From contig JAJDZZ010000069.1 in NCBI GenBank assembly GCA_022824405.1, positions 1-64,000 of the forward strand: DNA of 64,000 nt. The letters are read 5' to 3'. Both the position numbers and the translations under genes were made by a program. Shown here piece after piece: positions 21,987 to 43,345 of this stretch. Source of the stretch: Opitutales bacterium (GTDB lineage Bacteria > Verrucomicrobiota > Verrucomicrobiia > Opitutales > UBA2995). The notes beneath the pieces were generated by a model. The model searched no databases. It saw nothing but the letters and a program-made list of their open reading frames with translations, and was not told the DNA's origin. The first letter of the stretch is position 1. The number at the start of each line of letters is the position of its first letter.

Positions 21987-21991
21987 ACCTG

Positions 21992-22960: not shown

Positions 22961-22963
22961 ATC

Positions 22964-23362
22964 ATGAAAGAACGTTTAAATTATTCCCGTTGGATTCTCA
23001 CCATAACCTTTTTCTCCCTTATCGGTTTGCTCGCCGTAAGCATGATGACCGTCCATTGGAAACGGGAGATTCGTTCCGTCGCTTCGGGAATCCGAGCCGT
23101 GGAATCGGATTTGGAGGACTTGGAACGTCGTCAGGACACTATGGATACCGAACTGGCCCGTGCATTGAATCCGGAACACCTCAAAGGATTGGTTGCGGTG
23201 TCAAACCTCCGTTTGGCCCCCCCTCAGGAAAGCCGTATCATTGTGGTCCGTTCCAAAGACGAACCGTTTGAAGGCGCCTACCTGGGGAGTCTGGACAGGC
23301 AACCCCTTGAGATAGCCTCGCGGTGGGAACCGCTCAGCAGGCCCGGACAACGCACGGACTGA
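22964..23362 (+). CDS. ftsL: FtsL-like division protein
   Basis: 132 residues. A short cytoplasmic N-terminus is followed by one membrane segment (about 11-28) and a heptad-rich region (about 35-70, AVESDLEDLERRQDTM), the topology of FtsL. In other bacteria FtsL forms a complex with FtsQ/DivIB and FtsB/DivIC that controls FtsWI. FtsL is poorly conserved, so the assignment rests on topology, size and position between rsmH and ftsI. The stop is separated from ftsI by one base. Confidence 0.75.
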   Translation: MKERLNYSRWILTITFFSLIGLLAVSMMTVHWKREIRSVASGIRAVESDLEDLERRQDTMDTELARALNPEHLKGLVAVSNLRLAPPQESRIIVVRSKDEPFEGAYLGSLDRQPLEIASRWEPLSRPGQRTD

Positions 23363-23363
23363 C

Positions 23364-25136
23364 ATGGCCCGGGGAGGCATATCGGTTTTCCGGCTTCTTT
23401 GCGTCTTCCTGGCCTTCGTGGCAGGATTTGCTGCGGTTTTGTTTCGTCTGGCCGATCTTCAACTGGCGGACCGTGGGGAGTTGGCGGAGGTAAGTGAGCG
23501 GATTCGGACCAAATTCCAGGTAATCGAGGCCAAGCGGGGAAACATATACGATCAACGGCACAATCTTCTGGCCGCTGCCAACAGGGTTTGGCAAGTGGGG
23601 GTCGATCCCGAATCCCTTAACCCGGAGGATAAACCCAACTGGCCGAGGCTGGCCCAATTATTGGATATTCCCTACGAGGAACTGCGCCCGAAAATGCTAC
23701 CCGGTCTACGGGTTATCGATGGGGTGGAAACCCCGATTCGATGGAAGACCTTGGCGGACGATATCACAGAGGTAGGCTATGAAGAGATCCTCGCTTTGGA
23801 AATCGATGGGGTTTACGGGAATCTTCACTACAAACGGGTTTATCCCGGAAAAACCAATGCCGCCCACGTTCTGGGTTTCGTCAACAAGGAACTGACTCCG
23901 GTTACCGGGGTGGAGTTGGCCATGGATTTTTATTTGAGCGGCCAGAAGGGTTGGTTGGAAACCGAATACGACGGCAAGCGCCAGGAAATGGTACAGTTTC
24001 GCAAGCGCCAGGTAGACCCCGTGGATGGGTTTCATGTTTTTCTGACCCTCGACCTGATGGTTCAACATGTCATAGACGAGGAACTCAAGAAAATCGCCGC
24101 CATGAGGCCGGATGGCGCCACCATCATCGTGAGCAATCCTTCCAATGGGTTCATATTGGGACTGGGGAACTGGCCCAACTATGATCCGAACGAATTTTAC
24201 GACACGGAAAAGTACCCGTTGGCCCATAGGAGAAACTTGGCCATAACAGACATTTACGAGCCGGGTTCGACCTTTAAAATCGTCCCCATTTCCGCCGCCT
24301 TATCGGAAGAAATAGTAAATCCCGACCGGGAAATCGACTGTTCTTTGGATCGGGTGCGCTACCAGGGCCGGATCATTTCGCTTCCCGACGACTATAAGGA
24401 TTTCGGTGTTCTCACAGTGCGCAACGTGGTGGCATATTCCAGCAATCGCGGTTCCGCCTACATAGGCATGATGCTGGGCGACCAACGGCTTTACCGTTAT
24501 GCCCGAGCATTCGGTTTTGGCGAAAAGACGGGCTTCATACTGAGTGGAGAGGTTACGGGGATATTACACAAGCCGGCTCGATGGGATGGATTGACCGTCA
24601 GCAGATTGCCCATGGGCCACGCCGTTGCCTGCACGCCATTGCAAACGCACATGGCCATGACAGTAATGGCGAACAACGGGGTACTGATGGAGCCCATGAT
24701 TGTTTCCCGGGTGGAAGATACCGAGGGTAACACCATAGTCGAATTCCAGCCCAAAGTCAGGCGAAGGGTAATTTCTTCTATTGCTGCCCTTTCCATGTCG
24801 GAATTCCTGATCAAGGCGGCTGGTCCGGGGGGCACGGCACAAAACGCCCAGATTCCCGGTATGGAAGTGGCTGGAAAAACGGGAACGACCCAGAAAATCA
24901 TGAAAAACGGGAAGTATTCCCACAGCGAACACGTGGCCTCGTTCACCGGATATTTTCCGGCCAGGGATCCCCGATTGGCCATCACGGTTGTCATCGATAA
25001 TCCGAAGACCCGATATACCGCCTATGGCGGCCGGGTGGCGGCTCCCGTTTTCAAAAGGGTTGCGGAGCAGTTGATTCACATAAGGGGAATTTCTCCCAGT
25101 TCCCCCAACCGTTCAATCGCACTGGACAAAAACTAG
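23364..25136 (+). CDS. ftsI: Division-specific transpeptidase (PBP3/FtsI)
   Basis: 590 residues. One N-terminal membrane anchor (about 8-28), then a PBP dimerisation domain beginning KRGNIYDQRHNLLA, then the transpeptidase. The serine nucleophile is Ser 302 in EPGSTFKI (SxxK), the second motif is the SSN of YSSNRGSAY and the third is the KTGT of AGKTGTTQK. It cross-links peptidoglycan at the septum with FtsW. The MGHAVACTPLQ segment before the third motif is normal for class B PBPs. It lies between ftsL and murE with very short spacers. No PASTA domains are present. Confidence 0.94.
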   Translation: MARGGISVFRLLCVFLAFVAGFAAVLFRLADLQLADRGELAEVSERIRTKFQVIEAKRGNIYDQRHNLLAAANRVWQVGVDPESLNPEDKPNWPRLAQLLDIPYEELRPKMLPGLRVIDGVETPIRWKTLADDITEVGYEEILALEIDGVYGNLHYKRVYPGKTNAAHVLGFVNKELTPVTGVELAMDFYLSGQKGWLETEYDGKRQEMVQFRKRQVDPVDGFHVFLTLDLMVQHVIDEELKKIAAMRPDGATIIVSNPSNGFILGLGNWPNYDPNEFYDTEKYPLAHRRNLAITDIYEPGSTFKIVPISAALSEEIVNPDREIDCSLDRVRYQGRIISLPDDYKDFGVLTVRNVVAYSSNRGSAYIGMMLGDQRLYRYARAFGFGEKTGFILSGEVTGILHKPARWDGLTVSRLPMGHAVACTPLQTHMAMTVMANNGVLMEPMIVSRVEDTEGNTIVEFQPKVRRRVISSIAALSMSEFLIKAAGPGGTAQNAQIPGMEVAGKTGTTQKIMKNGKYSHSEHVASFTGYFPARDPRLAITVVIDNPKTRYTAYGGRVAAPVFKRVAEQLIHIRGISPSSPNRSIALDKN

Positions 25137-25144
25137 TACTTTTC

Positions 25145-26752
25145 ATGAAAGGATTTGTCGAGATTGAAACACCTGCAAGGGGCAGCCGATTGCAGACTGG
25201 AAGTTGGGGTAACAATGGGTCGAGGGCGGTGGGCCCCAGGCAAAAATGTTTGCCGCCCACCCTGAAAACGCTCTTTCCCGAAAGGATCCGAATTGCCAGC
25301 AGGGGCGACTTGAACAAGCCGGTTTCGGCTCTGGTTACGGACAGCCGCCGGGTAATTCCCGGTGCGGTATTTTTTGCCATCCCCGGCCTGCGAACCCATG
25401 GCAGGTTTTATATCGAGCAAGCCATTGACGGGGGAGCCGTGGCAGTGGTGTCGGAAGAGGCGCCTGCGCACTGGGGGCAGACGGCTTCGATTCAAGTGGC
25501 TTCCATTCGGCGGGTAGTGGCCCAGGTGGCTCGGAGTTATTGCGAATGCCCCGACCGGCATCTCCAGGTTACCGGCATAACCGGCACCAACGGCAAGACG
25601 ACGGTATCCTACGTTTTGCAGCACCTGCTCAACCGGCATTTCGGCCGGGGTGAGGCCGGGTTGATAGGGACCGTCCAGTACGACCTGGGGAAGCGGACCA
25701 TACCTTCATTCAAGACGACACCCGAAGCGATCGATACCTTTTCTCTGTTGAGGCAAATGGTGCAAGGGGGTTGCCGATGGGCCGTCATGGAAGTCAGTTC
25801 CCATGGGATCGACCAGTTTCGGGTTTTCGGAATATCCTTCGACGTGGGGGTATTTCTCAATTTGACGCAGGACCATTTGGATTACCATGGGGACCTCGAG
25901 AGTTATTATCAGGTCAAGAAGCGCCTCTTTAAATCGGATGCGGAAGGGGACCCGAAGGTGGCGGTGATCAACTGGGATGATCCCTATGGCCGCCGTCTGG
26001 CGGAGGAACTGAAGGGCGACCTTCGGGTAATCACGTTTTCCCTGAAAGATGAGAAGGCCGATCTATGGGCCCGGGCCTATGATTGTTCTCATCAAGGTTC
26101 CAGGGCGGTCGTTCAATCGGGATCGGAATCGGCGGTCCTTTCCACCCGTCTGCCCGGGGCTTACAACGTAAGCAACATTCTGGCCGCGCTAGCTATCTGT
26201 AAGGCTTATGGAATCGGGCTATCCGATATCGGGCCGGAGGTGGAATCCTTTCCCGGCGTTCCCGGGAGGATGGAGCGCCTCCCCTCTAATGGGAATTTCA
26301 ACGTTTTCGTGGATTACGCCCATACGGATGACGCCCTGGCCAACGCTTTGGAAATGTTGAGCGCCATTACCCTGGGCAGGGTGATATTGGTCTTTGGCTG
26401 CGGAGGATGCCGCGACCGGGACAAGCGCAGGCTCATGATGAAGGTTGCCCAAAAGTATGCCGATCATACTTGCGCAACCTCGGACAATCCCCGTTCCGAG
26501 TCCATCGAAGCGATTTTCAGGGATATGAAGGAGGGGGTTTCAAATCCGGCAAAGGTTGAATTTATTTCAGATCGCCGGGCCGCTATCAGCCGGGCCCTCG
26601 ACGTGGCTCGGTCGGGAGACACCGTTTTGGTGGCGGGGAAAGGGCATGAAACCGTACAGGAATTCAAGGATAGAATCGTTCCCTTCGACGACCGTCAGGT
26701 CACCCGCGAGTTATTGGAAATCAAGCAATTGGTTAATGCCAGAATCCCGTGA
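25145..26752 (+). CDS. murE: UDP-MurNAc-tripeptide synthetase (meso-DAP type)
   Basis: 535 residues. Adds the third residue to UDP-MurNAc-L-Ala-D-Glu. The ATP loop is GITGTNGKTT (about 145-153). The DNPR motif at 447-450 is the marker of enzymes that add meso-diaminopimelate rather than lysine. EVSSHGIDQFRV, NLTQDHLDYHG and VFVDYAHTDDALANAL are normal. The N-terminus carries roughly 30 extra residues before the first recognisable strand; no better internal ATG was seen. Its end overlaps murF by four bases. Confidence 0.95.
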   Translation: MKGFVEIETPARGSRLQTGSWGNNGSRAVGPRQKCLPPTLKTLFPERIRIASRGDLNKPVSALVTDSRRVIPGAVFFAIPGLRTHGRFYIEQAIDGGAVAVVSEEAPAHWGQTASIQVASIRRVVAQVARSYCECPDRHLQVTGITGTNGKTTVSYVLQHLLNRHFGRGEAGLIGTVQYDLGKRTIPSFKTTPEAIDTFSLLRQMVQGGCRWAVMEVSSHGIDQFRVFGISFDVGVFLNLTQDHLDYHGDLESYYQVKKRLFKSDAEGDPKVAVINWDDPYGRRLAEELKGDLRVITFSLKDEKADLWARAYDCSHQGSRAVVQSGSESAVLSTRLPGAYNVSNILAALAICKAYGIGLSDIGPEVESFPGVPGRMERLPSNGNFNVFVDYAHTDDALANALEMLSAITLGRVILVFGCGGCRDRDKRRLMMKVAQKYADHTCATSDNPRSESIEAIFRDMKEGVSNPAKVEFISDRRAAISRALDVARSGDTVLVAGKGHETVQEFKDRIVPFDDRQVTRELLEIKQLVNARIP

Positions 26753-28143
26753 GTTTACTTTCGACCCAACCTTTTGCCGATTGGACCGGAGGGAGATGGA
26801 ACAAACCTCCTCCCGAGGGGATAACCGCATTTAATATCGACAGCCGGATCGTTTGTTCCGGGGAGATGTTCGTGGCTCTCGCCACCAGCGAGCGCGATGG
26901 GCACGATTTTGTGGCCAACGCCCAAACGAACGGGGCGGTGGCGGCGTTGGTTTCCCGGGAAATCGACTTGGCCGGTATTCCGCAACTGGTGGTGGACGAT
27001 CCGATCGACGCCCTGCAGAAAATTGCTGAAAATCACCGTAAAGGATTCGAGGGACTGGTCATCGGTGTGACGGGAAGTTGCGGAAAAACTTCCACCAAGA
27101 ACCTGCTGGCACGGTTGCTTCCCGACACCACCCTCAAGACTCAGGGCAATCTCAACAACCATCTCGGGGTGCCACTGACCCTTTCCCTTCTGCGTCCCTG
27201 CCATACCCATGCCGTTGTGGAGGTGGGAATGAATACTCCGGGTGAGATTGCCAAACTGGCCCGGCTGACCGGGCCGGATTATTCGGTGATAACCACCATT
27301 GCGCCGGCCCACCTCAAGGGGATCGGTTCCATTGAGGGAGTAGCATTGGAAAAGGCTGCCATGGCGGCGGCTACCCGAAAACTGACCGTTCTGCCTACGA
27401 CCTGTTTTCGCTTCGCCCCCTTCCAGGAGTTGGAAACGCCCATCCTTGCCGCGGGAAAACCCGAATCGGGTTGGACTTATCCGGAAAATGTCCGGTTTTG
27501 TCATTTTGAGATTGAGCACCATGGAGAAATGACGCGGGTTTTCCTGCACCCCGAAACAGGCGCCTCTTTGAAATTTCAGCGAAGCCGGATGAGTGAAGGC
27601 ATGGCCCGGAACACGGTATTGGCCTTGCTATTGGGTTTGGAGTTGGGAATGGAAGCCCCACTGCTTCAGGCCCGATTGAAGATGTGGAAACCGGGGTTCC
27701 TCCGGGGTGACCAGGTCCGATTGGGGAACCTGACCTTTTTTATCGATTGCTATAATTCAAATCCCCTGAGCATGCGGGATTCACTGGACTATTTCCATGC
27801 CATCATGCCGGAGGAATCGCCTCGGTTTTACGTGCTGGGCGGAATGGGTGAACTGGGTCCCTACACCGAGGAATATCACTGGCAACTGGGACAGTCCTTT
27901 CAGATGCGTGCGGGAGATCGCCTGTTTATTACCGGAAGGGAGATTTTTGGGTTCCTGGCCGGTTACAAGGCAGCAGGAGGCGATGAATCGCAAGTAACCG
28001 TCTTTGAGGACAAACGGGTGGTGGTCCGATTTTTGCGAGAGGCCAATGGGTCCGTATTTCTCAAGGGAAGTCGGGCCTACATGCTGGAGACCATTTACGA
28101 ACAATTAAAGGAGGAGCGTTTTCCGCTGTCGGCGATATGCTGA
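26749..28143 (+). CDS. murF: UDP-MurNAc-tripeptide:D-Ala-D-Ala ligase
   Basis: 464 residues from GTG 26749, overlapping the murE stop (GTGA). Adds D-Ala-D-Ala to the UDP-MurNAc tripeptide. The ATP loop is GVTGSCGKTSTKN; TQGNLNNHLGVPLTLL-like sequence, VVEVGMNTPGEIAKLA and FIDCYNSNPLSMRDSL are characteristic, the last being the NAN/DSYN-type motif with a Cys variation (DCYNSNP). The end overlaps the mraY start by seven bases. No ddl, which makes its substrate, is in the cluster. Confidence 0.93.
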   Translation: MSLLSTQPFADWTGGRWNKPPPEGITAFNIDSRIVCSGEMFVALATSERDGHDFVANAQTNGAVAALVSREIDLAGIPQLVVDDPIDALQKIAENHRKGFEGLVIGVTGSCGKTSTKNLLARLLPDTTLKTQGNLNNHLGVPLTLSLLRPCHTHAVVEVGMNTPGEIAKLARLTGPDYSVITTIAPAHLKGIGSIEGVALEKAAMAAATRKLTVLPTTCFRFAPFQELETPILAAGKPESGWTYPENVRFCHFEIEHHGEMTRVFLHPETGASLKFQRSRMSEGMARNTVLALLLGLELGMEAPLLQARLKMWKPGFLRGDQVRLGNLTFFIDCYNSNPLSMRDSLDYFHAIMPEESPRFYVLGGMGELGPYTEEYHWQLGQSFQMRAGDRLFITGREIFGFLAGYKAAGGDESQVTVFEDKRVVVRFLREANGSVFLKGSRAYMLETIYEQLKEERFPLSAIC

Positions 28144-29237
28144 GTTATTTGGCAGAATTGGAAGCTTGGTGGGGACCGTTGCGGTTATTCCGTTACATAA
28201 CGTTTCGGGCTCTCCTTGGATCGGCTACAGCCCTGTTCATCGGATTTGCCCTGGCCCCATACATGCTGGAGAGGTTGCGCAGGTTCAAGTTGCACCAGCG
28301 GCTGCGGGACAAGAGCGAGGTCGGGTCCCTGGCCAAACTGCACGCCGGCAAAAAGGACACCCCCACCATGGGTGGACTGATGATTTTCTTCTCGGTGACC
28401 GTTTCCGTACTTATTTGGGCCAAGCCCAATGTTTTTGTGCTGGCCGCCCTGGGGGTATACGCGGCGCTCACCTTGTTGGGATTTGTCGATGACTATTTGA
28501 AGATTTCGAGAAAGGACAGCAAAGGTCTGAACAAGAAGCAGAAACTGATTTGGCAGACTTCCGTAACGGTACTAACGCTGTTCCTCCTCGTTATGCATCC
28601 CGCCAGTGCGGACAAGATAAGAGAACTGTGGGTGCCTTTTTTCAAGGATCCGGTAATAATGGTCATGCCCCTTCCGTTTTTGTTTGTTTTTCTTTTCTTC
28701 GTATTGGTCGGTTCCTCCAATGCCATTAACCTCACCGATGGCATAGACGGGTTGGCGATTGGTTGTACCATAACGGTCGCCCTGGTTTACTGCATCATGG
28801 CCTACGCTGCGGGACACGCGGTCATAGCCGACTATTTGGTGATCAGTTTTGTTCCCGGAGTGGGGGAGTTGAGTATAATTTGCGCGAGTCTGGTGGGAGC
28901 GGGCCTGGCCTTTCTTTGGTACAACTCGCACCCTGCGGAAGTTTTCATGGGGGATACCGGGTCCTTGGCCTTGGGTGGGCTGATCGGTTTGGTGGCGTTC
29001 ATGGTGCACCAGCCTCTGACCCTGGTCATTGTGGGAGGGATTTTTGTCATTGAAGCGCTTTCCGTCCTCATTCAGGTCTTCGCTTACAGGACGCAAAAGA
29101 AACGGGTTTTTGGGATGGCTCCCATCCATCACCACTTCGAATTGAAAGGATGGCCCGAATCGAAAGTCGTCATCCGATTCTGGATACTTTCACTCGCCTT
29201 TGCCCTCGTCGGCCTGGGCACCCTTAAACTGCGATGA
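28137..29237 (+). CDS. mraY: Phospho-MurNAc-pentapeptide transferase
   Basis: 366 residues with about ten membrane segments. Transfers phospho-MurNAc-pentapeptide to undecaprenyl phosphate to make lipid I. Motifs: KKDTPTMGGLMIFF, GFVDDYLKISRKDSKGL (the catalytic Asp pair), SNAINLTDGIDGLAIG, NSHPAEVFMGDTGSLALGG and APIHHHFELKGWPE. The length is typical. It overlaps murF upstream and murD downstream (ATGA at 29234-29237). Confidence 0.97.
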   Translation: MLSYLAELEAWWGPLRLFRYITFRALLGSATALFIGFALAPYMLERLRRFKLHQRLRDKSEVGSLAKLHAGKKDTPTMGGLMIFFSVTVSVLIWAKPNVFVLAALGVYAALTLLGFVDDYLKISRKDSKGLNKKQKLIWQTSVTVLTLFLLVMHPASADKIRELWVPFFKDPVIMVMPLPFLFVFLFFVLVGSSNAINLTDGIDGLAIGCTITVALVYCIMAYAAGHAVIADYLVISFVPGVGELSIICASLVGAGLAFLWYNSHPAEVFMGDTGSLALGGLIGLVAFMVHQPLTLVIVGGIFVIEALSVLIQVFAYRTQKKRVFGMAPIHHHFELKGWPESKVVIRFWILSLAFALVGLGTLKLR

Positions 29238-30532
29238 GGAGACGGCAGCCAGCGGATAAGGTAAAATTCTGGCTTCGCCGTCCCGTTGCCATTTTTGGGG
29301 CGGGAATTAGTGGCCGGGCCGCTGAGAGTCTGATTGACGGTTTGGGAGGAACCTCGGTCGTCTACGATGAATTCAATGCGGATTTCCCTGACTTTTCCGA
29401 GAAGGCTGCCACCCGGCATGAATTGATCGTCGTCAGCCCTGGATTCTGCCGGGAGCACCCTTGGATGAAACGGGGTCGTCTTCACGGCTGCGAAATCATC
29501 GGGGAGTTGGACCTGGCCAGCCTTCTGTGGAAGGGGAAGGTCGTCGCCGTGACCGGCACCAATGGAAAATCGACCCTGGTAGAATTTATCGCCCATTCCC
29601 TTCGCTATGCCGGTTTCGAGGCCCGCGCCGTCGGCAACATCGGGATCCCTTTTGCCCAGTCCCTGACCAAGTGGAACAGGGCCGAGGCTTGGGCGGTAGT
29701 GGAAGTAAGCTCGTTTCAGGCCGAAACCATGCGCTACTTCCGGGCCGATACGGTTCTTTGGTCAAACTTTTCCGAAGATCATCTCGATCGGCACGGGTCC
29801 ATGCGTTCCTATTTTGAAGCGAAGGCGAATTTGCTATCGGTGGGGCGTCCCAGGCTTTCCTTGCTCGGAAAAGATGTGGCCCCTTGTTTCAGGCGGTTCG
29901 GATATGCCCTTCCGCCGGAGGCACAGGTATTGTCAGGTCCGGTTCTGAACGGACCGGAGGGTTCCATTTTCAACCTTCTCCCGCAGCGGGAAAATTTTCA
30001 ATTGGTCGCGGCTCTGTTCCGGTTTTGGGGCTTCGATCCCGGAATATTACTGGATACAGTGACCAGTTTTGAGCAAAGTCCGCATCGGCTCCGGCGCGTT
30101 TCAAGGATAAAGGGAGTTGAATTCTGGAACGACTCCAAAGCGACCAATTTTTCTGCGGCGGAGGCCGCCCTCAAACACTTTGACCGAAAAGTTATCTGGC
30201 TGGGAGGGGGCAAAGCCAAAGGAGGCCGGATCGGATCCTTTGTCCGGCGGATAAGCCCCTGCGTAAAAAAGGCATTCCTCACAGGCGATACGGCTGAGCA
30301 ACTGGGAGGAGCCCTCGATGAAACGGGCGTTTCCTGGGAACGGTTCGATTCGCTGGAAGGTTCGGTCCGGGCCGCCTTCGTTCAGGCTGCTGCGGACGAT
30401 ATTGTGCTACTAAGCCCGGGCTTTGCCAGCCAGAAACCCTTCAAAAGTTTTTCCGAACGCGGGCGCTTTTTTGAACGAGTGTTATCGGATCTCGAGTTTA
30501 ATCTGCAATTAACCCCCCAAACAAATAATTAA
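29234..30532 (+). CDS. murD: UDP-MurNAc-L-Ala:D-Glu ligase
   Basis: 432 residues. Adds D-glutamate to UDP-MurNAc-L-Ala. N-terminal Rossmann-like UDP site (VAIFGAGISGRAAESL), ATP loop VTGTNGKSTLVEF, VEVSSFQAETM, NFSEDHLDRHGSM, and the C-terminal domain with FWNDSKATNFSAAEAAL and WLGGGKAKGG. DIVLLSPGFASQKPFKSFSERG near the end is the usual murD tail motif. It is slightly shorter than the E. coli enzyme but complete. It starts within the mraY stop and is followed one base later by the LysM lipoprotein gene. Confidence 0.95.
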   Translation: MRRRQPADKVKFWLRRPVAIFGAGISGRAAESLIDGLGGTSVVYDEFNADFPDFSEKAATRHELIVVSPGFCREHPWMKRGRLHGCEIIGELDLASLLWKGKVVAVTGTNGKSTLVEFIAHSLRYAGFEARAVGNIGIPFAQSLTKWNRAEAWAVVEVSSFQAETMRYFRADTVLWSNFSEDHLDRHGSMRSYFEAKANLLSVGRPRLSLLGKDVAPCFRRFGYALPPEAQVLSGPVLNGPEGSIFNLLPQRENFQLVAALFRFWGFDPGILLDTVTSFEQSPHRLRRVSRIKGVEFWNDSKATNFSAAEAALKHFDRKVIWLGGGKAKGGRIGSFVRRISPCVKKAFLTGDTAEQLGGALDETGVSWERFDSLEGSVRAAFVQAAADDIVLLSPGFASQKPFKSFSERGRFFERVLSDLEFNLQLTPQTNN

Positions 30533-30533
30533 A

Positions 30534-31628
30534 ATGAAAGCGAAAGTATTCATAATGGTGATGGCCTTTCACATCCTGGTGGTTGCCGGACTATATTTGC
30601 TGTCGGCCTGCTCTACAAAAGAGGGGCCGGTATCGGCGATCGGTCCACCTGCCCCTCAAGTCGCGGAGAGCCCCCGCCCCCGATTACAGGCGCCGACCCG
30701 CCCTGAAAGTCCCCAGGAACTTACCAACCAGGAAGAACCCGCATACGCTGATGTGGCTGATGTGGCTGATGTGGCTGATGAGGCAGAGGTGGCTGAGGTG
30801 GTCCCGGAGCTCGACCCCATTTTCAATGCCGGGACCGAGTTGGAGGATCCTACGTCCGACCGGGGCCAAGTATACGTGGTAGAATCTGGCGATACCCTTT
30901 GGAGTATCTCGACGAAACACGGTGTGGCCCTGGACGATTTGCTGGGGGCCAACGGCCTGACCCGGAATTCCACCCTACAGATTGGTCAAAGGATATCCAT
31001 TCCAGTCGAAGGCCAGTTGGAAATTTTTCCGGAAACTTCGGCTTTGGGAGATCTTGAACCATTGCCTTTGGAGCCCGTTGTGCCCGAACCCTCGGACCTG
31101 CCTCTGGAAATGACCCAGCCCTACACCGTGGTCTCGGGCGACACCCTTTCGGGCATTGCCCGACGGTTCAATACCAGGGTGGAGGATATCATGGCGGCCA
31201 GTGGTTTGACCTCCCATAACCTTCGAGTGAACCAGGTGCTATCAATTCCGGTGAACAGTATTTCCACGGTTATTCCTCCCCTGGCGATAGAACCGGTTCC
31301 GGAGGTTTCTCCTGAGCCTGTTGCCGACCATGGATCGGTCGTCCATGTCGTTCAACCGGGAGAGACTCCTTCCGGTATTGCCAAAAAGTACGGAATTTCC
31401 GTGGCCAAACTGATGGAAGACAATCGAATCGGCGATCCCCGGAGAATTTTTGCCGGGGAAGAATTAAGGATTCGCATGTCGGAGGCTCAGCCCCTGGAAC
31501 CGGTGTCGGCCGTGGAGGACCCCGTCCCGCCTCCTTCATTGGATGCTCCGGTGACTCCCGCCGAATTGGATGAGTCGGTTTTCGATGATCTGCAGGGTAT
31601 TCCGGAGGTGGAAGTGGCCCCACAATAA
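30534..31628 (+). CDS. LysM-repeat lipoprotein between murD and ftsW (NlpD-like position)
   Basis: 364 residues. A lipobox LLSAC (Cys 26) predicts a lipid-anchored envelope protein. Three LysM domains lie at about 112-157, 196-240 and 269-314 (YVVESGDTLWSIS, YTVVSGDTLSGIA, HVVQPGETPSGIA), separated by proline/glutamate-rich linkers. LysM domains bind peptidoglycan GlcNAc. Before the first domain is a short ADV tandem repeat. No LytM/M23 peptidase or amidase domain follows; the C-terminal 50 residues are acidic and Pro-rich. Chlamydiae carry nlpD, also LysM-bearing, in the same place between murD and ftsW, so this is probably the PVC counterpart. It may anchor or recruit division-site hydrolases. 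Confidence 0.85.
   Translation: MKAKVFIMVMAFHILVVAGLYLLSACSTKEGPVSAIGPPAPQVAESPRPRLQAPTRPESPQELTNQEEPAYADVADVADVADEAEVAEVVPELDPIFNAGTELEDPTSDRGQVYVVESGDTLWSISTKHGVALDDLLGANGLTRNSTLQIGQRISIPVEGQLEIFPETSALGDLEPLPLEPVVPEPSDLPLEMTQPYTVVSGDTLSGIARRFNTRVEDIMAASGLTSHNLRVNQVLSIPVNSISTVIPPLAIEPVPEVSPEPVADHGSVVHVVQPGETPSGIAKKYGISVAKLMEDNRIGDPRRIFAGEELRIRMSEAQPLEPVSAVEDPVPPPSLDAPVTPAELDESVFDDLQGIPEVEVAPQ
30746..30801 (+). repeat. In-frame 9-bp tandem repeat in the LysM gene
   Basis: Three near-perfect GCTGATGTG units are followed by diverged GCTGATGAG, GCAGAGGTG and GCTGAGGTG units. They encode ADVADVADVADEAEVAEV, an acidic linker just after the lipid anchor. Repeats of this type expand and contract by slippage while keeping the frame. 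Confidence 0.85.
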
Positions 31629-31652
31629 CCGGTTCGGCTCGTCCCCCGCGTC

Positions 31653-32813
31653 ATGCCAAAATTTTCCATAGGAAGAAATCCCGCAGGGGGATTTTTTTAT
31701 CAGAGGCTGCTGATTTTTATCAGTGTTCTGACCTTGATGATCATCGGCCTGATTTCCATTTCCAGTGCGACTCAGTCCCTGGATGCCGGTTCCTACCGGT
31801 TTTTGGAAAGGCAAATGATATGGTTGGTTTTGGCCATTGGGTTAGGGTTGGTTGCAGCGCTGATCGATTTGGACAAAATCAAACCCCTCATACCGATCGC
31901 AGCCGTCCTGGCTGTAGCTGTGTTGATTTTGGTACTGATTCCCGGTATCGGGAAAATGGTAAACGGAAGCAGACGTTGGATCGTGTTGGGAGGGCTTGGA
32001 TTCCAACCGTCGGAATTTGCCAAGATTCCTTTTATTTTTTTAATGGCCTATTACCTGAATGCTCAACAGCGCAACCTGAAAGACCTGAAGATGGGACTCT
32101 TCCTTCCCTTAATATTTATTGGGTTATTTGCTTTTCCTATTTTATTGGAACCGGATTTTGGAACTTGCGCCCTCTTCGGGGCTGTCGGGATGTTGATGGT
32201 CTTTCTTTCCGGCGCCCGGCTGGTCCACCTCGTTCCCACCGTAGTGGGAGGGATGGCGGCCTTCATAGGTTTGATTCTCCAGGATGAGGTCCGGTCGCGG
32301 CGATTGTTCGCTTTTCTGGATGTCGAAGGAAATCGACAAGAGGGATCCTATCAATTGTACCAGGGGTGGCTCGCCTTTGTAAACGGGGGAGCCACCGGGG
32401 TTGGAGCTGGCAATGGCCGTTACCAGAACGATTATCTCCCCGAGGCGCACACGGATTTCATACTGGCCATCATTGGTGAAGAGTTCGGTTTCATGATAAC
32501 CACTTTGGTAGTAATTCTGTTTGCCACCGTTTTTTGCCTGGTAATTTTTTCCCTCAAACGCGCGCCCAATATGTATCATGGGCAATTGGTTATGGGCACT
32601 TTGCTGATGATCTGCCTCCAGGCCTTGATCAATATGGGGGTCGTGACCGGTTTACTTCCAACCAAGGGATTATCCCTCCCCTTCATCAGCTATGGCGGGT
32701 CGAACCTGATTACGATGTGCGTTCTCACCGGTATACTAATAAACTGCCTGCGCCATTGGGAGAGGCTTCCCATTAGTTCTGAGCAAAGAAAATTTGTTGA
32801 AATTACAGCATAA
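31653..32813 (+). CDS. ftsW: Septal peptidoglycan glycosyltransferase, SEDS family
   Basis: 386 residues with about ten membrane segments. SEDS proteins polymerise lipid II; FtsW works with FtsI at the septum. Motifs: NGSRRWIVLGGLGFQPSEFAKI, LLEPDFGTCALF (with the conserved Asp), a large extracellular loop with GSYQLYQGWLAFVNGG, LPEAHTDFILAIIGEEFGF, and LPTKGLSLPFISYGGSNLI near the end. It starts 24 bases after the LysM gene and its stop overlaps the murG ATG by one base (TAATG). Confidence 0.95.
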   Translation: MPKFSIGRNPAGGFFYQRLLIFISVLTLMIIGLISISSATQSLDAGSYRFLERQMIWLVLAIGLGLVAALIDLDKIKPLIPIAAVLAVAVLILVLIPGIGKMVNGSRRWIVLGGLGFQPSEFAKIPFIFLMAYYLNAQQRNLKDLKMGLFLPLIFIGLFAFPILLEPDFGTCALFGAVGMLMVFLSGARLVHLVPTVVGGMAAFIGLILQDEVRSRRLFAFLDVEGNRQEGSYQLYQGWLAFVNGGATGVGAGNGRYQNDYLPEAHTDFILAIIGEEFGFMITTLVVILFATVFCLVIFSLKRAPNMYHGQLVMGTLLMICLQALINMGVVTGLLPTKGLSLPFISYGGSNLITMCVLTGILINCLRHWERLPISSEQRKFVEITA

Positions 32814-33946
32814 TGGCTTCGATTATCATAGTATGTGGAGGGACAGGTGGACACCTTTCTCCGGGTATCGCTCTGGCTGAACAGTTGATGCGGCGGGAGC
32901 ACGTCTGCACCTTGGTCATTTCCAGGAAAAAGGTAGACGCGAGGTTGATCGAGAAGTACCCCGGTCTGGATTTTGTGGAGGCCCCCGGAGCACCCTTGCA
33001 TTTTCGACCCGCGGCCCTGATCCGCTTTGTCTGCCACCAGTCGGCCGCTTTTTTCTATGCCATAAAATTGCTCCTGCTCAAGAAGCCGGATTTGGTGATG
33101 GGTTTCGGCGGGTTCGTGACGGCTGGATTTGCCATACCTGCCTGGCTTATGGGTATTCCCTTTGTATTGCATGAAGCAAACCGGGTCGTAGGCCGGGCCA
33201 ATCGCCTATTGGGACGATTGGCCACCCGTATTTTTTTGCCTCCCGGGTTGAACTTGGCGGAGGGGCGGGTCCGGCGCATTCGACATGCCGCTTTGCCCTT
33301 GCGCCGGGAATTTCAGTGCATGGACAAATTGGCTGCCCGAAAAAAGCTGGGAATCGATGAGAAAGGCAAGTTGTTGGTGATTGTCGGAGGCAGTCAGGGC
33401 GCCCAACCGCTCAACCGATGGTCCCGGGAAAATGCCGCCGCCCTTGCTGAAAAGGGGATTGCGCTTTATTGCCTGACCGGAATGGGGCACAACCCGAGGG
33501 AACCCGCGAACCACGATACGAGGAACGGGGAAACCGTGGCCGCTCATTTTGTCGAGTTTTCCGATGATATGCCATCCGTGCTATCGTCTGCCGACGTGGT
33601 GGTTTCACGGGCCGGCGCGGGCAGCATTGCCGAGATAATCCGTTGCCGGGCTCCCTCCATTCTGATCCCGTATCCGCTGGCCCGGGATAATCACCAGTGG
33701 GCCAACGCCAAATACGTTGAAAAGTACGGCGCCGCCCTGGTCCTGGACCAAGAGGATCTGCCCCAACTTCGCCAGGCGGTCGAGGCACTCATCTTCGATG
33801 ATAAGCACTTGAACGAAATGGGAAAAGCCCTCCAATGGCTCGATCATTCACAGGGAGTTTACTCGTTGGGCAACGCGTTAGAGAGGCTGATCGATTGGGC
33901 TCATGTCCCAGGCGCCAGCGAAATTTCTACCTCCAATCGGATATGA
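32813..33946 (+). CDS. murG: Lipid II synthase (GlcNAc transferase)
   Basis: 377 residues. Adds GlcNAc to lipid I on the inner face of the membrane to make lipid II. GT-B fold: CGGTGGHLSPGIALAE at the N-terminus, MGFGGFVTAGFAIPAWL, PFVLHEANRVVGRANR, VIVGGSQGAQPLNRW, VVVSRAGAGSIAEIIRC and ILIPYPLARDNHQWANA near the C-terminus. All canonical segments are present. The start overlaps the ftsW stop and the end overlaps murC by four bases. Confidence 0.96.
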   Translation: MASIIIVCGGTGGHLSPGIALAEQLMRREHVCTLVISRKKVDARLIEKYPGLDFVEAPGAPLHFRPAALIRFVCHQSAAFFYAIKLLLLKKPDLVMGFGGFVTAGFAIPAWLMGIPFVLHEANRVVGRANRLLGRLATRIFLPPGLNLAEGRVRRIRHAALPLRREFQCMDKLAARKKLGIDEKGKLLVIVGGSQGAQPLNRWSRENAAALAEKGIALYCLTGMGHNPREPANHDTRNGETVAAHFVEFSDDMPSVLSSADVVVSRAGAGSIAEIIRCRAPSILIPYPLARDNHQWANAKYVEKYGAALVLDQEDLPQLRQAVEALIFDDKHLNEMGKALQWLDHSQGVYSLGNALERLIDWAHVPGASEISTSNRI

Positions 33947-35352
33947 GTTCCCATTCCAATACCTTCCCGATAGCCCATTATCACCTGCTGGGGATTGGTG
34001 GAATGGGTATGGCGCCCTTGGCTCTTTTCCTCAAACAAGCGGGTTGCCAGATATCCGGTGAAGATGACAACTTTCATCCGAGGGTCCATAAATTATTGAT
34101 ATCCAATGGCATTGAAATAAGTCGCAAACCCGACTATTCAACCTTGAAGGGCATTGTGTACTCCAATGCCATCCCCCAGGCCCATCCCGCTCTGCAATCC
34201 GGTTTGTCCAGGGAAGTCCCTTGCATTCGCCGGGGGGAGTTTTTGGCCAGGTTGTGTCGATGCTTTAAAACCCTGGTTGTGGCCGGATCGCATGGAAAGA
34301 CCACCACCTGCGGCCTGATTATTCACATACTGAGACGAAGCGGGTTCCCCTGCAATTATATCATGGGCGGGCTCTTCGCACGCGACGATGAGGACCCGGC
34401 CCGCTTTGATTCGGACAGCGATTGGCTCGTTGTGGAAGTAGATGAGAGCGATGGAAGTATTTCCGAATTCGAGCCCGAGGGCACCCTTCTGGTCAACGTC
34501 GATTGGGATCATCCGGATTTTTATACCAACTGGAGCAATATCCTGAATGTCTTTAATGAATTGGCCGGCCGGACGCGTCGGTTTGTCCTCTACAACAAGG
34601 CTTGCCGGAACTCCTTCAATTTGGATTTTTCGCAAAGTCCGGGGCGGGTTTACTCCTTTGGAACCGAGGCTGAATTCCAATTGGCGGGTTTTGAAAACCG
34701 ACGCCTGCAGGTGGGGGGGAATTTCCGGGATGAAAGCATGGAGGTGCCTTTTGAGGAATGGTTCAATGCGGAAAATGCCGTAGCGGCCCTGGCCGCGGCC
34801 CATCTGTTGAACTGCAATTTCGGCGAAGAGGTTTTACAGTCCTTCAATGGCATTTGGAGACGTCAGGAAACCCTATACCAACGGAACGGTTTTCGGGTCA
34901 TGGAGGATTACGGGCATCATCCTACCGAAATCAGAAACCTTCTGGAAGCGGTCAGGCAGAAAAAAGGTCCCTTGATTGTCGTATTTCAACCCCACCGTTA
35001 TTCGCGCACCCTTCAATTTAACCGACAATTTGCCGATTCCTTGAAATTGGCCGATTGTTTGGTCATTATGGACGTATACGGAGCCGGGGAGGCGCCGATA
35101 ACCGGCGGCAGCGGATTGGATCTCTTCGACAGGTGCGCCAAGTTCTTCCCCAGCCATGCCTTATATTTTTGTCAGAATGGCGGTTCCGTCCTGCGCCGTT
35201 TGAAAGCGCTCGATCTCGACCATGGCCTTCTTCTGTTTCTTGGCGCCGGAAACATCCAGATGGCCGCTGAATCCTATGTGCATCATTTGCGGGACGCGAA
35301 CCGGGAACTGGTAGTTTCGACGGCCCGACGTTCTCTTTCTCTTCTGCAATGA
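33943..35352 (+). CDS. murC: UDP-MurNAc:L-alanine ligase
   Basis: 469 residues from ATG 33943 (ATGA overlap with murG); the longer upstream frame runs through murG and is rejected. Adds L-alanine to UDP-MurNAc. Motifs: HYHLLGIGGMGMAPLA, ATP loop VVAGSHGKTTTCGL (GTHGKTTT in most MurC), VVEVDESDGSISEF, VMEDYGHHPTEI and FQPHRYSRTLQF. The Thr to Ser change in the loop is mild. In some chlamydiae murC is fused to ddl; here there is no C-terminal ATP-grasp extension. The end overlaps murB. Confidence 0.94.
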   Translation: MSSHSNTFPIAHYHLLGIGGMGMAPLALFLKQAGCQISGEDDNFHPRVHKLLISNGIEISRKPDYSTLKGIVYSNAIPQAHPALQSGLSREVPCIRRGEFLARLCRCFKTLVVAGSHGKTTTCGLIIHILRRSGFPCNYIMGGLFARDDEDPARFDSDSDWLVVEVDESDGSISEFEPEGTLLVNVDWDHPDFYTNWSNILNVFNELAGRTRRFVLYNKACRNSFNLDFSQSPGRVYSFGTEAEFQLAGFENRRLQVGGNFRDESMEVPFEEWFNAENAVAALAAAHLLNCNFGEEVLQSFNGIWRRQETLYQRNGFRVMEDYGHHPTEIRNLLEAVRQKKGPLIVVFQPHRYSRTLQFNRQFADSLKLADCLVIMDVYGAGEAPITGGSGLDLFDRCAKFFPSHALYFCQNGGSVLRRLKALDLDHGLLLFLGAGNIQMAAESYVHHLRDANRELVVSTARRSLSLLQ

Positions 35353-36269
35353 ACGGTGTAAAACGAAATGAAAGCCTGGCCCTGAAAACGACCTTGCGGG
35401 TCGGCGGAGCGGCTGAATTCTATGCCGAACCTTCCGATGAAACGGAACTAAAGGAACTTTTGCAGGAGGCAAACCGGAACCGTATCCCGGTAAATTTTTT
35501 GGGCAGGGGATCGAATATCATTGTGCCGGATACCGGGGTCGAAGGTTTGGTCATTCGTTTATCCAAACCCTATTTTCGAAAAATCGAGTATTTGAACGAT
35601 GGAAGAATACGTGCCGGCGCCGGAGTGCGGTTAAAGCAGGTTTGCGGATTTGCCCGGAGGAAAAAGCTTTCCGGATACGAATTTTTAGAGGGCATTCCGG
35701 GGTGCGTGGGAGGTTCCCTCAGGATGAACGCGGGCGCCATGGGCGGTTGGCTGTCCGATGTGTTGTCGGAAGTGGTTCTCATGAGTCATGGGGGCGAAAT
35801 TTCCACCGTGCCGGTTGAGGAACTGCATTTTGGCTACCGCTATTGCGAGGAGTTGAAGGAAGCCATCGGGTTGGGTGTTATTTTTCGAAAGGGAAACTTG
35901 GCCAGCCTCCCCGAGATCCAGCATACCATGGATGCCTACAAGAGTACCCGGATGGAAACGCAACCCCGTCTGCCCAGCGCCGGATGCACCTTTAAGAATC
36001 CCGAAGGAGGCGCGGCCGGGGCCCTTATCGATCAATGCGGCTTCAAAGGGGTTTCGGTGGGAGGGGCCTCCGTTTCGGATATCCATGCAAACTTTATCAT
36101 AAACAGGGGCAATGCCACTGCCGCCGATGTCATTGCCTTGATAAATTGGATTCGAAAAAGGGTGTTCCGGGAAACAGGCCATGTCCTCGAACCCGAAGTC
36201 ATACTCTTTGGCGATCAATGGGAAAGCTACCTCGAACCCTTGGTTTCAGAGCGCCACTCCACTGTTTAA
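35349..36269 (+). CDS. murB: UDP-N-acetylenolpyruvoylglucosamine reductase
   Basis: 306 residues. Reduces enolpyruvyl-UDP-GlcNAc to UDP-MurNAc with FAD and NADPH. TTLRVGGAAEFYAEP starts the FAD domain; NFLGRGSNIIVPDTGVEGLVI, GIPGCVGGSLRMNAGAMGG and AGCTFKNPEGGAAGALID follow. Size and the arrangement SAGCTFKNP are those of type IIb-like (short) enzymes. It starts within the murC stop and is followed by ftsQ after 18 bases. In many bacteria ddl comes here; it is missing. Confidence 0.94.
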   Translation: MNGVKRNESLALKTTLRVGGAAEFYAEPSDETELKELLQEANRNRIPVNFLGRGSNIIVPDTGVEGLVIRLSKPYFRKIEYLNDGRIRAGAGVRLKQVCGFARRKKLSGYEFLEGIPGCVGGSLRMNAGAMGGWLSDVLSEVVLMSHGGEISTVPVEELHFGYRYCEELKEAIGLGVIFRKGNLASLPEIQHTMDAYKSTRMETQPRLPSAGCTFKNPEGGAAGALIDQCGFKGVSVGGASVSDIHANFIINRGNATAADVIALINWIRKRVFRETGHVLEPEVILFGDQWESYLEPLVSERHSTV

Positions 36270-36287
36270 AAACCCGCTTATTCCAAA

Positions 36288-37220
36288 ATGACAAAGAAGA
36301 GAAAAATATCCAAACCGGTTCGCACCACCTGGAAAAGGATTCCCCAAAAAACCGGGCGACAATCGGTAACGAAGGAATCCCAACGGGTGAAAGTTCGCCG
36401 CTGGGGGCGGATTTTCGGTTTTGGTCTCGGAACCTGCGCCTTGGTTTTGGGCCTCCCGCTGGGGGGGTATTTCCTATTCCAAAATTCCTCCTCCATCGTA
36501 GCCACCGTTCCGGAGGGATCTCCGGTCCAGGTCGAAATTCAAACGGGCCGGTTTCTCCCCGAATCCTGGATAGAATCGCGGCTGGACCTGGACCCCGCCC
36601 AGGGTCTGATGCAAATCGACTTGCTCGATGTCAAAGCCAACCTGGAAAAATATCCCGAAGTAAAGAGGGCTTCGGTGGAGCGGCATTTTCCCAATGTGTT
36701 GCGGGTCAGCGTGCAGGAACGTTATCCTTTCTTCCGCCTGAAGGTGAGCGGAAGCAATGGAAGCTATAACATTCTCCTGGTGGACGAGGAAGGGCACGTG
36801 TTCAAGAATATAAATTGCCCGCAACACCTCTTGCGCAGAATTCCCTTTCTGGGCGGTATTATTCTGCATCCCACTCCTTTTGGGTATCGGCCTGTCGAAG
36901 GGGCAACCATACTGGCCGATCTCGTTAAAACCGCAAATGACCTCTACCCCGACCTGAGCCGGGATTGGGTGTTGATATTGGCCGATCAATTGATCATGGC
37001 CCAGACCTTTACCGAAGGATATATCCGGGTGCGTTCCCGGACCATAGAGGAGATTCTATTTGCCCCTAAGCAATTCGACAAGCAGTTGGAAAGATTGAAC
37101 TACATCTTGGACAATCACGCGGGTAAGTCAGACAAGTCCCTGGCCAGGGTGAACCTCTCTCTCCTGAACCAGCCAACAGTAGAGTACTCCCGGGTTTCCG
37201 CTCCCAAACGCTACCGCTAA
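36288..37220 (+). CDS. ftsQ: FtsQ/DivIB-like division protein
   Basis: 310 residues. A basic cytoplasmic N-terminus (about 45 residues, Lys/Arg-rich), one membrane segment (about 46-68), then a POTRA-like domain (about 80-155: RFLPESWIESRLDLDPAQGLMQIDLLDVKANLEKYP and VERHFPNVLRVSVQERYPFF) and a C-terminal beta domain. This is the FtsQ layout, and its place before ftsA supports it. FtsQ links early and late divisome proteins and contacts FtsL/FtsB. Sequence similarity to model FtsQ is low, as usual. Confidence 0.82.
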   Translation: MTKKRKISKPVRTTWKRIPQKTGRQSVTKESQRVKVRRWGRIFGFGLGTCALVLGLPLGGYFLFQNSSSIVATVPEGSPVQVEIQTGRFLPESWIESRLDLDPAQGLMQIDLLDVKANLEKYPEVKRASVERHFPNVLRVSVQERYPFFRLKVSGSNGSYNILLVDEEGHVFKNINCPQHLLRRIPFLGGIILHPTPFGYRPVEGATILADLVKTANDLYPDLSRDWVLILADQLIMAQTFTEGYIRVRSRTIEEILFAPKQFDKQLERLNYILDNHAGKSDKSLARVNLSLLNQPTVEYSRVSAPKRYR

Positions 37221-37239: not shown

Positions 37240-38451
37240 GTGAGTTCCAAAATCATCGCAGGTGTAGAAATTGGTACCAGCAAGGCCGTCGTTCTGATCG
37301 GTGAAATTGTCCATGGCAAAACCCTCAATATAGTCGGCATGGGCATGACCTCGAGCGGTGGAGTAAAAAAGGGCGAGATCATAGACTTCAATGCGGCGAG
37401 CGACTGTACCCACAAGGCTATTATGGAAGCGGAAGAGAGCGCCGGGGCGAGTGTCGAAGCCGTTTATCTGGCCCAGACGGGCCACCACCTGGAAACCTTT
37501 TTCAGCGATGCGGAGGTTACGGTGAAATCTTCCAAAAACATCGTCCATCGCTCCGATATTCGGCGGTTACTGGCCGAGGCGAAGCGGAAACAGTTGCCCG
37601 AAGACCGAGCCATTATCCATCACATCCAAAACGGTTTTTACCTGGACGAGGAATTGGTGGAGTCACCCGAGCACCTGGAGGGACACAAACTGGAAGTGCG
37701 CTACTGGAATATCCACGGTTCCATCAAGCGAATGAGCGACTCTATCCACATCATCAACGGTTTCGGTCTACGGGTGGAGGATCTGATCGTGTCCAGCTTG
37801 GCCTCGGGCAAAATGGTGACCACGAAGGAAGAACGTGGAAACGGGGTGCTGGTGGTGGACATCGGAAGTGGAACCACCGATTACGTGTTGTACAAGCACG
37901 GGCACGTTGTTTACACCGGTGTTCTGGCGGTGGGAGGAGACCATATTACCAATGATCTGAGTATTGGCCTTCGCACCAGTTCCAATCTAGCCGAATTGCT
38001 GAAAATCAAAAATGGCAAGGCATCCCTGCAGCCGAAGTCACAGGATGACCGGGTTATGCTGGTCGGAGATCTGGCTATTGGGGACCGTTCCATTGCGCGT
38101 TCCGGGGTTTGTCAGATAATCAATGCCCGAGTGGATGAGTTGTTCAGGCTCATTGGCAACGACGAGAATTTGGCGCCGTTTTTCAGTTCCAGTCAATGGG
38201 GTACGGTGGTGCTGACAGGCGGCACTTCCAAATTGAAGGATATCGAGAAGGTTGCCGAAAAGGCGCTCGGTTTGCCGGTCATGCTGGGTGGAAACCCTTC
38301 CTGGGTAGCCGAGGAAATCCAAGGGCCTGAATATAGCACGGCGCTCGGTTTGCTGCACTTTGGTCTGAGTTACAACCACGTGAAGGAGTTCAAAGAGCGT
38401 AAACGGGGTGGCGCCCTGATGGAGGGGGTCAAGAAACTTTTCGGAATTTAG
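37240..38451 (+). CDS. ftsA: Divisome actin homologue FtsA
   Basis: 403 residues from GTG 37240. Actin-fold ATPase that tethers FtsZ to the membrane. IIAGVEIGTSKAVVLIGE is the phosphate-1 loop; VLVVDIGSGTTDYVLY is phosphate 2; VVLTGGTSKLKDIEKVA is the adenosine motif. The 1C domain follows the first subdomain. The C-terminus ALMEGVKKLFGI can form the short amphipathic helix that binds membrane. The stop overlaps the AGGAGG ribosome-binding site of ftsZ. Confidence 0.95.
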   Translation: MSSKIIAGVEIGTSKAVVLIGEIVHGKTLNIVGMGMTSSGGVKKGEIIDFNAASDCTHKAIMEAEESAGASVEAVYLAQTGHHLETFFSDAEVTVKSSKNIVHRSDIRRLLAEAKRKQLPEDRAIIHHIQNGFYLDEELVESPEHLEGHKLEVRYWNIHGSIKRMSDSIHIINGFGLRVEDLIVSSLASGKMVTTKEERGNGVLVVDIGSGTTDYVLYKHGHVVYTGVLAVGGDHITNDLSIGLRTSSNLAELLKIKNGKASLQPKSQDDRVMLVGDLAIGDRSIARSGVCQIINARVDELFRLIGNDENLAPFFSSSQWGTVVLTGGTSKLKDIEKVAEKALGLPVMLGGNPSWVAEEIQGPEYSTALGLLHFGLSYNHVKEFKERKRGGALMEGVKKLFGI

Positions 38452-38462
38452 GAGGTTTGGAT

Positions 38463-39707
38463 ATGGAAAACAGAGAAATTCTGACGCCCTCTACCCGCAT
38501 AAAGGTAATGGGTGTTGGTGGCGCTGGAAATAACGCAGTGGACCGCATTCGGCTCGAAATGAAAGTCATGGATGGTTTGGAACTCTGTTGCGTAAATACC
38601 GACATGAGAACGCTGGCCGATTCCCCGGTGGGTGACCAACATTTGTTGGGAAGGAATCTCACCCGCGGTTTGGGTTGCGGGGGCGATCCTCATTTGGGCA
38701 AGGAGGCGGCCCTGTCCGATTCCGAATCGATTGCCCGCATTGTAGACGGTTATGAATTGGTTTTCCTCATCAGTAGCCTGGGTGGCGGCACGGGCGCCGG
38801 CGCCTCACCGATCATCGCCAAAATTGCCAAGCAGTCCGGTTGCCTCGTTATCGCCTTTGTCAATATGCCCTTTACCTTTGAAGGAGAGCGGCGCTTCAAA
38901 CAGGCCAGCCAATCCCTGGAGGAACTCCGCGAGATTTGCGACGCAGTCATTCCATTGCCCAATGACGTGCTGCTGCAGGAGGAGGCGGCCCAGGAATCGG
39001 TGCTGCATGCCTTTTCCAAAGCCGATGAGTGGATCACCCGCGGGGTTCGATCCATCTGGGCCATGCTTTCCAAGCCGGGGTTGATAAACCTCGATTTTTC
39101 ATCATTGCGGGAGGTTTTCAACGCGCGGGGCGGCAAAACCCTTTTCGGGGTCGGTTCCGGCTGCGGTCCGAATTTCATACGGGACGCCCTGAACGATTTG
39201 ATGCAGTGTCCCCTTCTGCACGTCCCGGATTTTTCCAAGGTGGCGGACAATCTTCTGGTCAATATCGTTGGGGGAACGGATCTGTCCATGGCTCAGATCG
39301 AAGGGGTAATGGCATACATAACCGAGCAATTCGGGAGCAAGGCGAGCACCACTCTGGGCGCCGTGATCGATGAAGGAAAACAACAGTCCATTGAGATTTG
39401 TGTCATCGGCACTACCGATTTGGGAGGGTTACGTCCCCTTCGCACAAAAAGGTCCGCCTCGTCTCCTTGGGAGAAGGGCCGTAACCGGCTCGCTCGCAAC
39501 TCCGCCTCCGGCAAGCCCGGCACAACGGTTGAGGGGCGCAAACCGGATCGCCTCGAACCGGCTAATTCGGTTCAACAGGATTTGGGGATCGATGGATTGG
39601 AAGGAACCCGCGGATATTTTGAGGAGACCGGCCGCAACGAATTCGGGGGACAGGACCTGGACGTGCCCACCTACCTGAGGCGGGGAATTCGGATTGTCCT
39701 GACCTGA
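38463..39707 (+). CDS. ftsZ: Cell division tubulin FtsZ (divergent T7 loop)
   Basis: 414 residues from ATG 38463, seven bases after a perfect AGGAGG (38450-38455). FtsZ polymerises into the division ring. The GTP signature is GGGTGAGASP (usually GGGTGTGAAP). The T7 synergy loop reads NLDFSSLREVF, where most FtsZ proteins have N-V-D-F-A-D-V: the second Asp (E. coli Asp 212, needed to hydrolyse GTP in the neighbouring subunit) is Ser here. The conserved C-terminal peptide survives as DLDVPTYLRRGIRI after a linker of about 80 residues. It ends the dcw cluster. GTPase activity may be reduced or arranged differently. Confidence 0.94.
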   Translation: MENREILTPSTRIKVMGVGGAGNNAVDRIRLEMKVMDGLELCCVNTDMRTLADSPVGDQHLLGRNLTRGLGCGGDPHLGKEAALSDSESIARIVDGYELVFLISSLGGGTGAGASPIIAKIAKQSGCLVIAFVNMPFTFEGERRFKQASQSLEELREICDAVIPLPNDVLLQEEAAQESVLHAFSKADEWITRGVRSIWAMLSKPGLINLDFSSLREVFNARGGKTLFGVGSGCGPNFIRDALNDLMQCPLLHVPDFSKVADNLLVNIVGGTDLSMAQIEGVMAYITEQFGSKASTTLGAVIDEGKQQSIEICVIGTTDLGGLRPLRTKRSASSPWEKGRNRLARNSASGKPGTTVEGRKPDRLEPANSVQQDLGIDGLEGTRGYFEETGRNEFGGQDLDVPTYLRRGIRIVLT

Positions 39708-40769: not shown

Positions 40770-40828
40770 CGGAGAGAAAGGGGCGCATCCCCTTTCAACG
40801 ATTGGCTTCCCGGAACCAACCCGGACGA

Positions 40829-41653: not shown

Positions 41654-41665
41654 CGGTTGGAGGGG

Positions 41666-43321: not shown

Positions 43322-43345
43322 ACCCTGAGCAACCCTGTTTCGGGC

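Follow-up and report, generated by a model that had tools for sequence, protein, structure and literature searches.

FtsZ is described as needing two aspartates in its T7 (synergy) loop, and treadmilling powered by GTP hydrolysis is regarded as central to division. The ftsZ gene examined here lies in a 64,000-nucleotide stretch of an Opitutales genome (assembly GCA_022824405.1, contig JAJDZZ010000069.1; below, the window) and encodes a protein which keeps only the first of these aspartates. This raises the question whether such a protein is a working FtsZ and, if so, what its catalysis rests on.

Identity and context of ftsZ

The dcw cluster is complete in the window and ftsZ is its final gene (Table 1). 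As listed, the open reading frame starts with a TTG at 38457. However, the ATG six bases further in, which is preceded by an AGGAGG motif, is probably the true start. Both FtsZ domains were found above their cut-offs (PF00091, 135.9 bits; PF12327, 47 bits), whereas the NCBIfam equivalog profile for ftsZ, TIGR00065, stayed below its cut-off (272.3 vs 295.2 bits), yet was still the best and only family match. The low score agrees with a published statement that verrucomicrobial FtsZ proteins are among the most divergent (PMC9871819). The AlphaFold model (mean pLDDT 81) gave only FtsZ structures as top PDB matches, with a TM score of 0.91–0.92 against S. aureus FtsZ, normalised by target. Thus, domains, GTP signature, fold and the place beside ftsA, together with the C-terminal peptide, are those of FtsZ, but the T7 hydrolysis motif, quoted as NxDxx[D/E] (PMC12583498), is not, as NLDFSS carries Ser at its final position. 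An identity as FtsZ-like protein (Tubulin_2), TubZ or BtubA/B was rejected, since NCBIfam and Pfam returned FtsZ only and the PDB sequence matches were FtsZ as well.

Table 1. Positions of ftsZ, its neighbours and its functional sites in the window.
Feature	Position	Strand	Observation
dcw cluster without ftsA and ftsZ: rsmH, FtsI-like transpeptidase, murE, murF, mraY, murD, LysM protein, ftsW, murG, murC, murB, ftsQ	21944..37220	+	
ftsA	37240..38451	+	directly 5' of ftsZ; TIGR01174 above cut-off
ftsZ CDS, 414 aa	38463..39707	+	PF00091 and PF12327 above cut-off; FtsZ fold; sole PF00091 match in genome
Arg49 codon, place of E. coli Gln47 / S. aureus Gln48	38607..38609	+	Arg/Lys in 8/8 family members
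GTP-binding signature GGGTGAG	38781..38801	+	fits [SAG]GGTG[SAT]G
Arg144 codon (E. coli R142, S. aureus R143)	38892..38894	+	conserved in 102/116
T7 (synergy) loop NLDFSSLR	39087..39110	+	ungapped alignment to E. coli N207-R214
Asp211 codon (kept E. coli Asp209)	39093..39095	+	acidic in 110/116 FtsZ of the order
Ser214 codon, place of E. coli Asp212	39102..39104	+	non-acidic in 106/116 FtsZ of the order
C-terminal conserved peptide DLDVPTYLRRGIRIVLT of ftsZ	39654..39704	+	kept in relatives; resembles E. coli DYLDIPAFLRKQAD

In comparison with its congener, the gene has a dN/dS of 0.11 and the proteins are 91% identical. With this value, the complete dcw cluster and the intact C-terminal peptide of FtsA type, ftsZ is evidently in use as judged from its sequence, and the original prediction of a protein in use with intact context and peptide is borne out. 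An ordinary second ftsZ elsewhere was not detected: a PF00091 search for a further FtsZ or tubulin in the 96%-complete draft genome gave one match, the ftsZ of the window.

In the region 39780-45649, a membrane-protein-like ORF of 329 aa without Pfam match lies directly 3' of ftsZ and is a putative phosphate permease. Beyond it follow pstB (TIGR00972) and, on the opposite strand, ORFs resembling pstA and pstC.

The T7 loop and the GTP signature

The T7 loop is encoded by AAC CTC GAT TTT TCA TCA TTG CGG (N-L-D-F-S-S-L-R). Our own alignment and phmmer alignments with the FtsZ proteins of P. aeruginosa and B. subtilis agree that Asp212 is replaced by Ser and that Asp209 is kept. The numbering of the E. 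coli reference was verified (N207-R214 = NVDFADVR) and is in agreement with the phmmer alignments. In the AlphaFold model, the T7 residues are located between helix H7 (180-203) and helix H8 (212-218), as in FtsZ. The congener has the same T7 residues, but its codon for Ser214 is TCT instead of TCA, which argues against a sequencing error. Hence, the predicted absence of the second aspartate, with Ser in its place, is confirmed, and the search for an alternative alignment with an acid at position 212 left it unchanged, as the loop is ungapped and has no consistent neighbouring acid. In contrast, GGGTGAG had been read as a change from GGGTGTG, which does not hold: it falls within the accepted tubulin signature [SAG]GGTG[SAT]G (quoted in PMC1845146). 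Most relatives have GGGTGSG, and GGGTGAG thus does not point to altered GTP binding.

Distribution of the T7 acids in Opitutales and the class

To see how far the Ser at position 212 extends, 201 verrucomicrobial FtsZ from related genomes were aligned with that of E. coli (202 rows), a comparison at the T7 loop that had been proposed with the original prediction. Sampling covered the Verrucomicrobiota; conservation of Asp209 and Asp212 in other phyla was taken from papers. An exact DNA pattern for the T7 loop served as a spot check only and missed most families. Position 212 was acidic in only 10 of the 116 FtsZ from 24 Opitutales families, all ten being from families f2, f8, f24 and f26; elsewhere T, S, A, H, Q, M, V and others were found. 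In terms of entropy among 304 core columns of the 116 sequences, position 212 ranks 233, i.e., among the more variable, and position 209 ranks 26. D45, G71, G107, E138, R142 and N165 remain conserved across the same proteins. The state of the window is thus not specific to one genome; on this alignment, FtsZ without Asp212 is a real active-site variant of the whole order rather than the oddity of a single genome. The rest of the class differs, with an acid at 212 in 45 of 51 FtsZ and at 209 in only 22 of 51, and many of these proteins have the reverse state, Gly209 with Asp212 (NVGLDDL).

In the phylogenetic tree, 114 Opitutales FtsZ form one clade (SH-like support 98), with the long-branched L051 falling outside and L053 left out of the tree. 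Given one supported clade, it is simplest to assume that 212 was lost near its base and regained later in f2 and f24. Over the phylum, at least 17–18 changes are required for 212 and 14–15 for 209; these minimum counts alone do not separate gain from loss. We infer from the tree that the direction at the base of Opitutales was loss of Asp212, not regain. The T7 loop of very divergent FtsZ (other classes, f35) is possibly misaligned, but the test for correlated evolution within the class alone (below), which omits them, gave the same answer.

Trade-off between the two T7 acids

Of the 202 rows, 122 have an acid at 209 only, 37 at both positions (including E. coli), 34 at 212 only and eight at neither, while one is gapped at both. 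A Pagel-type test for correlated evolution, applied to a tree from which the T7 columns had been excluded, favoured dependent evolution with FastTree (LR 22.2, p=1.9e-4) as well as IQ-TREE (LR 22.7, p=1.5e-4). The class alone gave LR 25.1 (p=5e-5), and three thinned samples gave p=0.001–0.009. On the full trees, either acid is lost about 4–5 times more slowly once the other has already gone. However, the simulated number of tips with neither acid was not significant (P=0.35), and neither was an independent pairs test, for which informative pairs were too few. The sequences, therefore, support but do not prove that loss of one T7 Asp lowers the chance of losing the other.

A sister genus with neither acid, and position 47

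Four FtsZ of a sister genus within the family of the window (L004, L005, L006, L017) read NVNFSTLR or NINFSTLR, i.e., Asn209 with Thr212. Among those of the four that were compared, synonymous divergence was saturated (pS 0.84) and Asn209 and Thr212 were fixed with differing codons. Residues fixed at saturated synonymous sites identify these acid-less FtsZ as constrained proteins under purifying selection. Two other members of the genus (L007, L008) keep D209 and have S212.

E. coli position 47 is Arg or Lys in all eight FtsZ of the window's family. The corresponding Gln48 of S. aureus makes contact across the interface with the K+ ion that the T7 loop binds (PMC8936486), and E. coli FtsZ Q47K works only with suppressors. 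We speculate that Lys/Arg47 of the lower subunit might stand in for this K+. Nevertheless, other families commonly have Lys/Arg47 as well, alongside other T7 states, and its link to the T7 change is, for this reason, a lead only.

Possible loss and decay of FtsZ elsewhere in the order

Eleven genomes gave no FtsZ with PF00091 or the order's own profile (G013, G031, G035, G039, G048, G062, G065, G078, G080, G089, G090). They belong to families f7, f25, f27 and f28, comprise 0.8–1.0 Mb and are 83–95% complete; their PF14450 matches are mostly about 350 aa long and MreB-like rather than FtsA. FtsZ-based division may have been lost in several families of the order. Likewise, neither profile detected FtsZ in two near-complete genomes of f16, G083 (single contig, 2.3 Mb) and G041 (3 contigs, 2.7 Mb). 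G083 has no match of FtsA/MreB type at all, and relatives from its genus retain a diverged FtsZ. A degenerate GTP signature (LGAGGGFSGGFA, GCLGRGFASGAL) was found in FtsZ of f4 (L045, L050, L052) and f22 (L047, L049). Both families still encode the C-terminal peptide despite this signature, and L052 has neither T7 acid in addition.

Discussion

Proposed catalysis on one aspartate

We consider it moderately probable that the window encodes a working and sole FtsZ whose catalysis rests on Asp209 and is probably slow. This reading builds on observations, namely the residues found at the two positions, their distribution across the order, purifying selection, the presence of one copy only and the correlated loss of the two acids. 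The protein would bind GTP and presumably polymerise. The upper subunit would then contribute Asp211 (E. coli Asp209), which places the water that attacks the GTP bound in the lower subunit, and Arg144, which is kept as well, would assist hydrolysis. Asp212 would have been lost near the base of Opitutales, leaving the position free to vary, and hydrolysis would probably be slower than in E. coli, yet not absent. The original prediction had suggested that other residues might be used or that an acid might compensate; neither the loop nor a scan of the alignment columns offered an acidic substitute, and the retained Asp209 is the likely fallback.

Catalysis on one aspartate is favoured by the retention of 209 in 110/116 FtsZ while 212 drifts and the residues of the GTP site are fixed, by the complementary loss of the acids, and by the dN/dS of 0.11, the single copy, the dcw context and the FtsZ fold. 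Structures from S. aureus point in the same direction: Asp210 (E. coli 209) swings to position the catalytic water, and Asp213 (E. coli 212) stays put and bridges via a water to Arg143, which assists catalysis (PMC8936486). On the other hand, S. aureus D210N and D213N each abolish assembly (PMC8936486), and for E. coli D212G, which forms static rings, the GTPase was about tenfold slower in one study and below 1% of wild type in a further one that it cites (PMC7320174). By analogy, non-assembling mutants and a GTPase of one tenth or less would speak against a single sufficient aspartate. Because D213N stops assembly and D212G is slow with static rings, the surrounding protein must, on the one-aspartate reading, have adapted to the loss. 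Further, conservation of Asp209 may be structural (contacts to K+ and the T3 loop) rather than catalytic, the four sister-genus FtsZ without Asp209 indicate that not even a single Asp is a strict requirement, and the simulated counts and the independent pairs, taken alone, give the trade-off no support.

The main rival is an FtsZ silent or nearly silent as a GTPase. Such a protein would bind GTP and assemble into scaffold filaments that are static or exchange slowly, and turnover would be due to weak contacts between subunits or to the action of other proteins instead of hydrolysis. We regard this as rather unlikely for the window. Negligible hydrolysis in the window's family, most plausibly in the Asn209/Thr212 forms of the sister genus and possibly in the protein of the window, is likewise a tentative proposal, under which these would be naturally non-hydrolysing scaffolds. 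It is biologically possible, as one suppressor in the genome is enough for E. coli to live on D212G (PMC5405962), and the near inactivity and static rings of E. coli D212 mutants (PMC7320174) fit it. So do the four acid-less FtsZ conserved at saturated synonymous divergence, and other families of the order with degenerate GTP signatures or no FtsZ. However, Asp209 in 110/116 proteins and a second loss slowed 4–5 times would be unexpected if hydrolysis were unimportant.

It is still more doubtful that the lost function is supplied by an acid elsewhere in the interface, by a partner protein, or by Arg/Lys47 replacing the K+ of the T7 loop and reshaping the site. The residue at position 47 in all eight family members, whose S. 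aureus counterpart touches this K+, and diagnostic changes of the order such as Trp188 and Lys222 would suit such a replacement. Yet no acid in the loop substitutes for 212, the column scan of the aligned FtsZ yielded no enriched acidic column as an evident substitute and no convincing candidate, and Lys/Arg47 co-occurs with other T7 states.

An artefact (sequencing error, pseudogene, misalignment or a second ordinary ftsZ) is extremely improbable in spite of the score below the TIGR00065 cut-off (272 vs 295 bits) and the draft state of the genome (96% complete), given the ungapped loop, the same state in 106/116 FtsZ, the dN/dS of 0.11, the single PF00091 match and the FtsZ fold; sequencing error and pseudogene are ruled out by the congener with the same residues and by this dN/dS.

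Comparison with known systems

The protein resembles canonical FtsZ of E. coli, B. subtilis and S. aureus in fold, GTP motifs, the equivalents of Asn207, Asp209 and Arg142, the C-terminal peptide and the dcw location, but differs in Ser for the second T7 Asp (E. coli 212, S. aureus 213) and Arg for Gln47. With E. coli D212G and similar mutants it shares the altered residue and the kept first Asp (PMC7320174, PMC5405962). However, D212G is a laboratory lesion which complements only with suppressors, whereas the variant described here occurs naturally and is conserved at the level of an entire order.

In beta-tubulin, as in the FtsZ of the window, the T7 loop keeps the first Asp and is non-acidic at the place of 212; the neighbouring GTP of beta-tubulin is thus left unhydrolysed. 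The beta-tubulin loop carries Lys254 (PMC13394414). Beta-tubulin alternates with alpha-tubulin, in which the catalytic Glu254 is kept, while the FtsZ of the window is a single species with every interface altered.

FtsZ of the V. spinosum type is likewise verrucomicrobial and divergent, and its gene lies in a dcw cluster (PMC1845146, PMC12283558); that of V. spinosum was called canonical yet divergent (PMC1845146) and is essential (PMC12283558). The FtsZ sampled from other members of its side of the class differ in that 212 is mostly kept and 209 lost (NVGLDDL). Nitrosopumilus maritimus has a natural FtsZ without the conserved T7 motif as well (PMC3684127), but there the GTP-binding motif is missing too and the protein is not believed to divide the cell, in contrast to the FtsZ of the window with its GTP site and division cluster. 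No published account of Opitutales FtsZ without Asp212 was found in the open-licence literature, which is weak evidence of absence.

Implications

FtsZ with both aspartates, with 209 only, with 212 only and with no acid form a large natural series, and each is the only FtsZ detected in the living lineage that carries it. This series could reveal which Asp is catalytic, the minimum GTPase that a dividing cell requires and whether it requires hydrolysis in the first place. The series is also relevant to the loss of FtsZ in the wider Planctomycetes-Verrucomicrobia-Chlamydiae group. If a non-hydrolysing scaffold were true, hydrolysis-powered treadmilling would be dispensable for FtsZ-based division.
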